A DNA stretch of 51,352 nucleotides, taken from contig JAURLI010000063.1 of NCBI GenBank assembly GCA_030831315.1, positions 1-51,352 on the forward strand, read 5' to 3'. Positions 2,163-7,828 of the stretch are shown piece by piece (the stretch's first letter is position 1; the number at the start of each line of letters is the position of its first letter). The DNA is from Alphaproteobacteria bacterium (GTDB lineage: Bacteria; Pseudomonadota; Alphaproteobacteria; SMXQ01). Both the position numbers and the translations under genes were made by a program. A model generated the notes under the pieces. That model was not told the DNA's origin. It saw only the letters and a program-made list of their open reading frames with translations, and did no database searches.

Positions 2163-2197
2163 AACCGTTGATTACCTTGATTAGCTTGATTACCGTC
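2163..2197 (+). repeat. Tract of three tandem 9-bp repeats, copy A
   Basis: After AACC the sequence reads GTTGATTAC, CTTGATTAG, CTTGATTAC: three 9-bp units in tandem. A diverged copy in the same orientation lies at 4867-4901, with 27 of 35 positions identical. Together they bracket a 2.7-kb segment containing the Rep-like gene. Iterons or element ends are possible readings; the function is inferred only. Confidence 0.55.
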
Positions 2198-2216
2198 TTG
2201 GCAGGACTCAGGGGGA

Positions 2217-2237
2217 TTAGCTTTGTACAAAGACTAA
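2217..2237. repeat. Palindrome around CTTTGTACAAAG
   Basis: CTTTGTACAAAG at 2221-2232 is a perfect 12-bp palindrome. Its flanks extend the symmetry to TTAG and CTAA with one unpaired base. It lies 24 bases beyond the 9-bp repeat tract and about 90 bases before the next gene, so it could be an operator or a recombination core. No known site was matched. Confidence 0.4.
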
Positions 2238-2322
2238 GTCACTCCAAACTGGAGCCTTTGACGAAGAACTCAAAATGAAGCTTTAATTGTGTTGTCTATT
2301 TGCTTTTCTTCGAAAGGACACC

Positions 2323-2604
2323 ATGTTCGAAATGTTACGTTCTTTTCTCTCGAATCCGATCGAATACACCTTCGGTGGTCATAAGCCCAGTGTAGGAGAT
2401 GAGTACCTCAAAGTTTTGCCTAGCTATCCTCGCCATACCTGGAAGCGGTACCGTTTGGAAATGATTACCGCTGACGCTGGCGGTATTTTGATGGCTAGCA
2501 TGATTGAAGTAACGAGTACGGCTAGTCGCCGCCCCATAGCATACGAAATGCTCTACAACGCCAATGAATGGCAGTTAGCTAGTCGAGAATCAGGGGTCGA
2601 ATAA
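2323..2604 (+). CDS. Hypothetical protein, 93 residues
   Basis: This small protein has no family I recognise. ATG 2323 is chosen because an AAAGGA ribosome-binding site stands a few bases upstream; the frame could also extend back to a TTG at 2287. The product is probably soluble. It begins MFEMLRSFLSNPIEY, and its middle (RYRLEMITADAGGILMA) could form beta strands. It ends 19 bases before the exported protein gene on the same strand and may share its transcript. The base composition is much lower in GC than the chromosome to the right, which agrees with an acquired origin. Confidence 0.5.
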   Translation: MFEMLRSFLSNPIEYTFGGHKPSVGDEYLKVLPSYPRHTWKRYRLEMITADAGGILMASMIEVTSTASRRPIAYEMLYNANEWQLASRESGVE

Positions 2605-2623
2605 AAAAGCTATAGACTGAAAA

Positions 2624-3061
2624 ATGCGAAGTTTCTTTTTATCTAGACCATATTGCATTTTTAGAGCTCACCTATTTTTTTGGGGCTCTATATTTTTAGC
2701 GATTTATGGATATGCATCTCCGCTTGCTGCAAAGGAAAAAAATGACTGTGTTCTAAAAGAATTAGAACTTGCTCATGCAATCAAAAACCGCGAGCCAGTT
2801 TCGAAAGCACAAATTTTTAAAGTTTCTGACAAGCGGGTTTACGCTTTTGTTCGCCTTGACTGCCGCAAGTTTGGGGGTGGAGCACAATTAATATTCTACA
2901 AGAATGGTAAGCGTTATCTGGCTCTTTCTGAAAAAGGATACGCATCAGATAATTTTAGAACTTGGGCGTATGTAACAGCCAGGAAAGGTGACTGGAAATT
3001 AGAGTTACGCATTGACGGGAAAGTTTTTGGGGAAAGAATGTTTGTGGTGACGGATGAATAA
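2624..3061 (+). CDS. Exported protein with a DUF2914-like domain
   Basis: This protein of 145 residues begins with an N-terminal hydrophobic stretch (about residues 16-35), followed by SPLAAKE as a possible signal-peptidase site, so it is likely periplasmic or membrane-anchored. The mature part ends with alternating strands, WAYVTARKGDWKLELRIDGK then FGERMFVV. That resembles the small DUF2914 domain, in which a Trp-rich beta sheet ends the chain; the match is by eye only. Two cysteines (CVLKELE and DCRKFGG) could form a disulfide. It is low in GC, has a weak ribosome-binding site, and faces the convergent ClpP-like gene 17 bases away. The function is unknown. Confidence 0.6.
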   Translation: MRSFFLSRPYCIFRAHLFFWGSIFLAIYGYASPLAAKEKNDCVLKELELAHAIKNREPVSKAQIFKVSDKRVYAFVRLDCRKFGGGAQLIFYKNGKRYLALSEKGYASDNFRTWAYVTARKGDWKLELRIDGKVFGERMFVVTDE

Positions 3062-3078
3062 TACCCTAAATATCTTCT

Positions 3079-3717
3079 CTATTTAGTAGATAACCCAGCA
3101 TTTCGCGCATTTCTCTCTCTTATTTCAAAGCACCATACTTTTCTACTTACCTCGCATAACTCTGCTTTATCATTGTAAAAATACATCATTTCTTTGTTTG
3201 TTGGCAGATGTATCCACTGCTCCAAAAGTTTTCGATCGACTGATGGAACATGATCGGTAATCCAAGTTCTTAGCCTATCGGGGGCAGCAACAAGGAGCCG
3301 CCCCTCACGATCATAATTACCATGAAGACCCACCTTTGAGTCGTCGCCATCCAATTCACGATTAACTCCCCCAAGCCACATCCTAGAACAAGAGGAAGCA
3401 CATCTTCCCTGAATGATCGTTGATAAGCCATTTTCGCGGATTAAAGACCCCACACAATATCCAGCATTAGCGTTTCCGCCTAAAGAATCCCTAAGGATCA
3501 CTTCCTTTATTGAATGCTGGCTGAGAATTCTTCTTAATTGATTACATTCATTACCAACTACGCGACCAGACATTATCACCTGATTACTATTTATTTCTAT
3601 ATCCATAGCAAATGACATTGTGGGGATTAGAAGTCCAACACCGCTAGCCAAAAGAACGAGCCACCCGATCGCTTTTATTAATAGGTATCTGAAGCTTGCT
3701 AGCATTTTAAAAATCAT
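3079..3717 (-). CDS. Exported ClpP/crotonase-fold protein, COG3904-like
   Basis: This protein of 212 residues has an N-terminal hydrophobic segment (about residues 12-37) that would export or anchor it. The core has the pattern of periplasmic ClpP-like proteins: DSLGGNANAGYCVG, where the Gly-Gly loop would form the oxyanion hole, followed about 20 residues later by GRCASSCSRMWLGGVNR, where a Ser between two Cys sits at the usual nucleophile position. A later His in VGLHGNY could complete the site. Family members are predicted proteases or esterases, but most are uncharacterised. The ATG is supported by GGAAG upstream. Low GC and isolation from related genes suggest acquired cargo. Confidence 0.65.
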   Translation of the reverse strand: MIFKMLASFRYLLIKAIGWLVLLASGVGLLIPTMSFAMDIEINSNQVIMSGRVVGNECNQLRRILSQHSIKEVILRDSLGGNANAGYCVGSLIRENGLSTIIQGRCASSCSRMWLGGVNRELDGDDSKVGLHGNYDREGRLLVAAPDRLRTWITDHVPSVDRKLLEQWIHLPTNKEMMYFYNDKAELCEVSRKVWCFEIRERNARNAGLSTK

Positions 3718-3827
3718 GATTACTTCCCTTCATCAAGCAACCTCCACACAATTCTCTTAGCTCCTTCAGTAAACTGAGCGGAAAACTCAACGCATCGCTG
3801 CGTGGTTCCCAGCGCGGAGCAACACAC

Positions 3828-3896
3828 ATGAAGCTAACCGTCTCGAAGGCTACTTCCCACAACAAGCCAACGCAATACGCTAAATATACGCGATGA
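3828..3896 (+). CDS. Possible 22-codon leader ORF overlapping the Rep-like frame
   Basis: Between the ClpP-like gene and the Rep-like gene a short frame runs from ATG 3828 to TGA 3894-3896. Its stop overlaps an ATG at 3893 in the Rep frame (ATGA). Such overlaps are typical of translational coupling. The peptide is basic and unrecognised, and no clear ribosome-binding site precedes it. It matters mainly because the coupled ATG is followed two codons later by an in-frame TGA (see the Rep-like entry). The rest of 3718-3901 shows nothing recognisable. Confidence 0.25.
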   Translation: MKLTVSKATSHNKPTQYAKYTR

Positions 3897-4051
3897 GTTG
3901 AACAACAGGCGCGTATAAGGCTGACACATTCAAAGAACTAAAGCGCAAACGCAAAGCTGACTTTAAGCAGCTACGTGAGAATAGTCACTTTAACGTAAAG
4001 ACGCACCGCAAGACTAAGCTGATACAAGCTGGCGTTAGCGACACGCGCACA

Positions 4052-4852
4052 TTGCTGAACGTACAAGTGAGCGCTGACCACGTGAGCAGGCTTGGCGTCG
4101 ATATGGTTAGTTATTGCGTTAGTAACCGCAGACAAAACGATGACTTGAAATTCTTAACGCTACTACATGAAGTTTGTGAACTTAACGTTGAGCGCGTGAT
4201 TGATTCAGCACAGCGTATGAGAGAGCTAATTGAGTTTGCTTGTAAGGAAGTTAAGGTCTTCGCGCTTGGCGTCGTTGAGATTGAGTTGGTGAACTTGACG
4301 CTACTGAAGCGGATACAAGAACAGACTGACGTAGAGAAGCGGAATCTACATGTACTGTGTGACTTGATTCCACCGACGGAACTCGACGGGCTTGTTGTGC
4401 GAAACGCGGAAGGAACGAAGGCGCTTGTACACGCTCACTTGCTTGTTGATGTGCGTGGTAAGGCTGATGAGTTCGAAGCTCAGCTTAAGAAGATTGGTGC
4501 TTGGCGGAAGACTGGATACCAAGTGAGGCTTGAACCGCTACACAGCAACAAGAGCCTGTGGAAGAACCTTGACGGAATAGCCAAGTACGGAACGAAGGGC
4601 GGGAACGAAACATTGAGGTACAAGGCTGGCTTTGGGCGGGACCTGAGCGAAGACTTAGACGCGAAGATGTTCAAAACGGCGAAGCTAGGTAGACGCGACA
4701 GGATTAAGACGGCTGATGATGAGACTGAGCTGACCCTTGAGGATGAGCGTAGCCTGACGGTGGGCGAACTAGCCTTTTTGAACGAAGCCTATGAGCGGCT
4801 GATGACGCTGAGGCGGGATAGGCGCGGATACCTGATACGGGCGGGGAAATGA
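4052..4852 (+). CDS. HUH-endonuclease replication initiator-like protein
   Basis: This protein of 266 residues carries the two core motifs of rolling-circle Rep proteins in the right order and spacing. VHAHLLVDV (His127 and His129) fits the metal-binding HUH motif 2, and IAKYGTKGG (Tyr179, Lys182) fits motif 3, with the Tyr expected to nick DNA. FALGVVEIELV around residue 70 could be motif 1. The start is uncertain. TTG 4052 is the first usual start codon, but the frame is open back to 3902 with a basic, protein-like sequence, and an ATG at 3893 is followed by an in-frame TGA at 3899. The native gene may therefore have begun at 3893 and been broken by one stop, or it may use a rare start. Codon use is unlike the chromosome. 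By family it would initiate replication of a small plasmid or phage; here it is probably integrated or relict. Confidence 0.55.
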   Translation: MLNVQVSADHVSRLGVDMVSYCVSNRRQNDDLKFLTLLHEVCELNVERVIDSAQRMRELIEFACKEVKVFALGVVEIELVNLTLLKRIQEQTDVEKRNLHVLCDLIPPTELDGLVVRNAEGTKALVHAHLLVDVRGKADEFEAQLKKIGAWRKTGYQVRLEPLHSNKSLWKNLDGIAKYGTKGGNETLRYKAGFGRDLSEDLDAKMFKTAKLGRRDRIKTADDETELTLEDERSLTVGELAFLNEAYERLMTLRRDRRGYLIRAGK

Positions 4853-4866
4853 CGGGCGGGCTGAAG

Positions 4867-4901
4867 AACCGTTGACTACGTTGACTACCCTGACTACCGC
4901 T
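4867..4901 (+). repeat. Tract of three tandem 9-bp repeats, copy B
   Basis: After AACC come GTTGACTAC, GTTGACTAC, CCTGACTAC. The tract begins 14 bases after the Rep-like stop codon and is a diverged direct copy of the tract at 2163-2197. The remaining sequence to 5046 has three AGCCC words in a 25-base stretch near 4943-4967 but no gene. Confidence 0.55.
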
Positions 4902-5046: not shown

Positions 5047-5078
5047 TCGGGCGGTGACTGTTTTTAGTCACCGCCCGA
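5047..5078. repeat. Perfect 13-bp hairpin with a 6-base loop
   Basis: TCGGGCGGTGACT pairs exactly with AGTCACCGCCCGA around the loop GTTTTT. A T run precedes the stem on the plus strand, but neither strand has a T run after it, so this is not a standard terminator. Its place about 200 bases downstream of the Rep-like gene suggests an origin or single-strand signal; that is inference. Confidence 0.6.
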
Positions 5079-5123
5079 TAAGCACCTGTGTTTACAGGAT
5101 ATTTTGGTGGGGAAATATCGCGA

Positions 5124-5159
5124 ATCGGGGCGGACGTAGACTACCGCCACCGCCCCGAT
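5124..5159. repeat. Second hairpin, 10-bp stem with a 16-base loop
   Basis: ATCGGGGCGG pairs with CCGCCCCGAT. The 3' arm resembles that of the hairpin at 5047-5078 (CACCGCCC followed by CGATA or GATA). A competing stem, GGCGGAC with GTCCGCC just downstream, overlaps it, so the region can refold. No gene lies between here and 5302. Confidence 0.5.
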
Positions 5160-5301
5160 AGTCCGCCATGCGTAGGTCTCGTCGGCGGTGCTGCCCGCGT
5201 CTCCGATTTAGATTCTCGCTATCCAGCATAGGTCAGAGTAGACTTTTCATCGGTCGCCTTCTAAAGTTAGCTTTTAGACTGTCCCGTGGTTTGTTCAAGT
5301 A

Positions 5302-6225: not shown

Positions 6226-6262
6226 TAATCAGCGGGACCAAGGTTCGAGTCCCTGTTCGCCC
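6226..6262 (+). other. Orphan tRNA-Lys-like 3' half
   Basis: These 37 bases match the 3' half of the intact tRNA-Lys at 7753-7828 (end of the anticodon loop, variable loop, T arm, acceptor strand) with three differences. The 5' half is absent and no CCA follows. The orientation is opposite to the intact tRNA. Tyrosine integrases often use such 3' tRNA halves as attachment sites, so this may be an att scar or an attP carried by an element. It is not a functional tRNA. Confidence 0.6.
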
Positions 6263-6368: not shown

Positions 6369-6854
6369 ATGGGCGACGAAACGTATTCGGTGAAAGGTGT
6401 AGCAGAGCGTATCGCCTATAAGGGCGATGCCGACGAAATTCGGAAGATCATCCGTCAACTCCGCCATTGGACCAATGCCGACCTATTGACGCCACTGGGC
6501 GAGAAACACACCGGCACCGGAGTGAGCCGCCAATACGACGCCGATGAGGTTCGAAAGGCGGCCATTTTGTTAGAGCTATCACGTTACGGGGTGACGGTGG
6601 AAATGTTGGAGGGATTCGATGAATGGACATCCCTTCTTAGAGGCACTGACCGCTGGAAAAAGGCTGCCGAAGGCAAGGGGGAATACTTTCTCCAAATGGC
6701 GTGGGAACCTGGGGACGATGGTGGGTCCGTATGGACGCCGAACCTGACGCACGGTCTTCTGGTGAGCAAAGAAATGAACAGGCGCCGGGATTTCACCTTG
6801 GTGAGCGCGATAATTATCAACGCAACGACGGTCTTTGAGCGCATCAGGTTCTAA
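6369..6854 (+). CDS. MerR-like DNA-binding protein
   Basis: This protein of 161 residues has an N-terminal winged-helix region of MerR type: YSVKGVAERI, IRQLRHWTNADLLTPLG, then a wing with GVSRQYDADEVRKAAIL and a following helix ELSRYGVTVEMLEGF. The C-terminal half (about 85-161) is unrecognised and lacks the usual effector motifs. Family members regulate promoters with long spacers, and the upstream promoter has a matching dyad at 6303-6319. Two small genes follow on the same strand, each next to a GGACA/GTCC dyad, so this protein may control the whole cluster. An alternative is an excisionase-like or replication-control protein of an integrated element. Confidence 0.65.
   Translation: MGDETYSVKGVAERIAYKGDADEIRKIIRQLRHWTNADLLTPLGEKHTGTGVSRQYDADEVRKAAILLELSRYGVTVEMLEGFDEWTSLLRGTDRWKKAAEGKGEYFLQMAWEPGDDGGSVWTPNLTHGLLVSKEMNRRRDFTLVSAIIINATTVFERIRF

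Positions 6855-7752: not shown

Positions 7753-7828
<76 letters not shown>

Follow-up and report, generated by a model that had tools for sequence, protein, structure and literature searches.

Two tracts of 9-bp direct repeats, which frame a gene for a HUH Rep-like protein in the alphaproteobacterial contig analyzed here, form a real pair that is private to its source genome within the collections searched, and the locus is a plausible decayed rolling-circle origin. For the specific reading that tract 2 was the initiator-binding array of a rolling-circle-type origin of the upstream Rep, that tract 1 was a second related array and that the whole has decayed, we regard the chances as about even. 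The window, i.e., the whole stretch of DNA that was analyzed (51,352 nucleotides), is one whole contig, and the tracts and the reading frames between them are located in it as follows.

2163..2197, + strand: tract 1, AACCGTTGATTACCTTGATTAGCTTGATTACCGTC, consisting of AACCG, then the units TTGATTACC, TTGATTAGC and TTGATTACC, then G.
2323..2604, + strand: small ORF, 93 aa, no family match.
2624..3061, + strand: small ORF, 145 aa, hydrophobic N-terminus, no family match.
3079..3717, - strand: ClpP-like ORF, 212 aa, N-terminus hydrophobic, with weak relatives that are located mainly on large plasmids.
3902..4852, + strand: HUH Rep-like frame, 316 codons, recognized by motifs, coding signal and hhalign.
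4867..4901, + strand: tract 2, AACCGTTGACTACGTTGACTACCCTGACTACCGCT, consisting of AACCG, then the units TTGACTACG, TTGACTACC and CTGACTACC; candidate Rep-binding (bind/iteron) array.

As described by the sequence-only reading, both tracts contain three 9-bp units in the same orientation and are identical in 27 of 35 positions, and both start soon after a stop codon, i.e., the TAA at 2148-2150 before tract 1 and the TGA of the Rep-like frame at 4850-4852 before tract 2, which begins 14 bases 3' of this stop. Tandem Repeats Finder (TRF) reports a period of 9 with approximately three copies for tract 1 and tract 2 alike, and no other 27-mer of the 51-kb window reaches 15 of 18 period-9 matches. 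In 100 dinucleotide-preserving shuffles of the window, the mean number of such period-9 positions was 0.07 and a matching pair was never obtained (0/100). The similarity between the tracts is confined to 35 bp with no homology past the tract edges; AACCG and ACCG at the edges are common to both, and the sites are self-contained with a length of 31–35 bp. The spacing of the 9-bp repeats is less than one helical turn. No ORF of at least 60 aa spans tract 1, which is non-coding, and tract 2 is likewise located outside any such ORF. The TAA before tract 1 closes a 57-codon frame without family match, and no Rep remnant was recognized upstream of tract 1. All three units of tract 1 contain GATTA and all three units of tract 2 contain GACTA. 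Such agreement of unit letters within, and difference between, arrays is common for the iterons of related replicons. Uniform GAT in one tract and uniform GAC in the other is suggestive of a separate homogenization of two arrays, which would fit better than one duplicated end, because a duplicated end that drifted is not expected to be uniform and hybrids would result if a crossover had occurred within the tract.

The tract was looked for in genomes of the class, in species genomes and in IMG/VR, in line with the search of relatives proposed by the earlier reading, and no relative carrying it was found. The 2.7-Mb genome contains no further full tract site; a two-unit pattern with at most one mismatch has a single match beyond the tracts (3538-3553, antisense in the ClpP-like ORF), and with two mismatches it has three matches, all on other contigs. 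At 3538-3555 the sequence TTGATTACATTCATTAC resembles two units of the tract in degenerate form and is probably there by chance. Allowing three mismatches, the full tract is absent from all other of the 289 class genomes. Among 84,980 species genomes (GTDB), exact scanning gave one match, in Calothrix, which was rejected as a relative because it sits in an apparent NQ-repeat coding stretch. Tract matches on 66 contigs of IMG/VR were rejected as relatives because nearly all are collagen-like GNQ (Gly-Asn-Gln) coding repeats, and four matches to a stricter pattern in IMG/VR, all of them coding, were rejected as well. Moreover, in other genomes the Rep loci L132-L140 are without tandem tracts of this kind, and no description of comparable 9-bp arrays was found in the literature.

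The label of the gene in front of tract 2 as HUH Rep-like is borne out by its motifs and by a weak profile match. The frame carries VHAHLL at residue 176 as motif II and KYGTK, with the Tyr at residue 229, as motif III; this order corresponds to HUH motif II followed by the YxxK motif III, and the pattern was present in none of 20,000 shuffles. An hhalign comparison with an alignment of REP_ORF2-G2P-like Reps resulted in a P value of 8e-5 and a probability of 61, and ten shuffles and the reversed sequence all stayed at or below 0.8. This match gives moderate support, because the template is a small set of five alphaproteobacterial Reps chosen for the same motifs. With motif II and the catalytic tyrosine of motif III both present, the assignment as HUH Rep holds at moderate strength, with no curated HMM match. 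The frame shares with REP_ORF2-G2P (PF23343) the order HxH then YxxK and the hhalign similarity to alphaproteobacterial members, but it differs in having no Pfam match, the cut-off of PF23343 included, and in having a long unique N-terminal region, and the loci of the family members are without tandem tracts. A search for PF23343 gave no match in the own genome. No relatives by sequence were detected in plasmids, phages, IMG/VR, 385 class genomes, 398 phylum genomes and the species-genome scan. Three candidate matches to the frame were rejected: a tblastn match in Microvirga runs antisense to an oxidoreductase-like ORF, one in G183 lies within a dihydroorotate dehydrogenase-like frame, and one in G721 contains stops. 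The AlphaFold prediction, done without an alignment, has a pLDDT of 33. Codon-position bias extends along the entire frame. The gene looks 5'-disrupted because no start codon occurs before TTG 4052, yet the coding signal begins at 3902 and an in-frame TGA is located upstream; the sequence ATG AGT TGA at 3893-3901 is in frame with the ORF and places this TGA (3899-3901) two codons past the ATG at 3893. An intact, expressible rep gene is not present.

Downstream of tract 2 two hairpins were found.

5048..5077, no strand assigned: perfect 12-bp inverted repeat with GTTTTT at its center and without a T tail; may represent a nic-type or single-strand-origin hairpin.
5123..5160, no strand assigned: second GC-rich hairpin, stem of about 10 bp, loop holding GACTACCGC.

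The first of them, approximately 150 bp past tract 2, is the only exact match to its pattern in the genome, folds much more stably than shuffled sequences (z -8.4) and is absent from the terminator list. The GACTACCGC in the loop of the second equals the nine letters closing tract 2 and has only these two copies in the 51-kb window, which is mildly unusual as 6 of 100 shuffles give at least two. Of the constituents of a double-strand origin, i.e., Rep-binding repeats and a nick hairpin, candidate repeats and candidate hairpins are both present.

From the motifs, the repeats and the hairpins we infer how the origin might have worked. The Rep would recognize tract 2 by binding to its three 9-bp direct repeats and would nick in or near one GC-rich hairpin 150–250 bp downstream, and the nick would start single-strand replication; one of the two hairpins may be the nick site or a single-strand origin. 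Tract 1, whose unit has GAT where that of tract 2 has GAC, would be another such array, most likely derived from a related element or from an origin duplicated long ago. Rep binding, nicking, former replication and the source of tract 1 all belong to this putative scheme. An iteron-like role of the tracts, as it was suggested from the sequence alone, is plausible and has some support from the HUH motifs, the origin-like hairpin downstream and the half-unit of the repeat in a hairpin loop. It draws no support from conservation, because no relative of the Rep, of the tract or of the layout was found.

The closest known arrangement is the pMV158-type double-strand origin with its bind and nic loci, which combines three tandem direct repeats of approximately 10 bp, a hairpin nearby and a HUH Rep gene (PMC9943647). 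The locus described here also has three tandem direct repeats, a nearby hairpin and a HUH Rep-like gene. However, its units measure 9 bp compared to 11 bp in pMV158, its array is located 3' of the rep gene with the hairpins 150–250 bp away, its Rep is without HMM-level match to known families, its gene is disrupted, and its nicking is putative.

Against this origin reading stands the proposal that the segment 2163-4901 is an integrated small replicon or a transposable unit whose ends are duplicated iterons or recombination sites, which we consider unlikely. The close similarity and same orientation of the tracts, the presence of the Rep-like gene and of small exported-type genes between the two and a drop in GC to about 40% just inside tract 1 would agree with such a unit. 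However, the homology is confined to the 35 bp, the units have GAT throughout one tract and GAC throughout the other without any hybrid, no edge in composition accompanies tract 2, the Rep frame is 5'-disrupted, the likely origin hairpins (5048-5160) are located outside the proposed unit, and neither a second copy nor a relative was found. With respect to a recombinase or transposase, no integrase is among the families matched by the ORFs; the HUH protein might take this role in principle, although its frame is disrupted. As for an empty site, no relative carries the tract, and for the flanking genes, encoding an FMN-dependent dehydrogenase and a fatty-acid hydroxylase, close homologues were found in none of the relatives. 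The bounded replicon of the earlier reading is hence not supported, and there is no evidence for the tracts as ends of a mobile unit. Its gene labels fared unevenly: the DUF2914-like label is backed by no HMM match, and the ClpP-like label retains weak matches, i.e., weak support. For the ClpP-like ORF a match on a 7.3-kb E. coli plasmid was rejected because this is a MOBP/Rop-type plasmid without a similar layout. The L126 match was rejected too, as it covers 24 residues of a different protein.

Equally doubtful is the view that the tracts share no function and lie near unrelated genes, either as two short tandem arrays that slippage produced from a similar octamer or as remains of tails coding for VDY/LDY. 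Reading both in one frame gives VDYVDYPDYR and VDYLD*LDYR, whereby the GAT/GAC difference would become synonymous, and the look-alikes in IMG/VR are nearly all coding repeats; but tract 1 has a stop in that very frame, both tracts follow stop codons outside any ORF of at least 60 aa, and their joint origin by chance is rare, as the shuffles show. That the tracts are sites for a regulator or recombinase, of host or phage, that has nothing to do with the Rep is very improbable: their self-contained length and shared AACCG and ACCG edges would suit such sites, but the 2.7-Mb genome has no other full site, which would be unusual for a host regulator, and no recombinase was found nearby. An unreported HUH Rep family with 9-bp triple-repeat arrays at both ends, which would move or amplify through the action of the Rep on both arrays and of which the locus would be a decayed copy, is likewise a long shot.

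As to the genomic setting, the low-GC stretch extends from approximately 2.2 kb to a tRNA-Lys gene.

7753..7828, - strand: tRNA-Lys (ctt), adjoining rodA, at the right edge of the low-GC region.

The tracts are thereby located in a mosaic low-GC region beside tRNA-Lys, which is likely a genomic-island remnant. In relatives, variation or an assembly break is seen at the tRNA-Lys next to rodA: the G001, G010 and G008 contigs stop at this gene or no more than approximately 170 bp from it, G002 has genes of P4-like primase and helicase type in this place (their names come from the sequence, not from an HMM), and other relatives have unrelated genes. A 37-nt inverted copy of the 3' part of tRNA-Lys with 92% identity (6226-6262 vs 7757-7793) is located 1.5 kb from the tRNA gene and resembles an old attachment-site fragment in inverted orientation. 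An ORF at 6369-6854 in the same low-GC region has a weak MerR-type HTH match and faintly resembles an ORF that G002 has in the corresponding position.

A decayed single copy settles little alone. If the origin reading is true, the locus keeps the origin and the initiator of a rolling-circle replicon lineage that is absent from the searched collections, and the different spelling of its two repeat arrays could be informative on joint changes of a Rep and its repeats.
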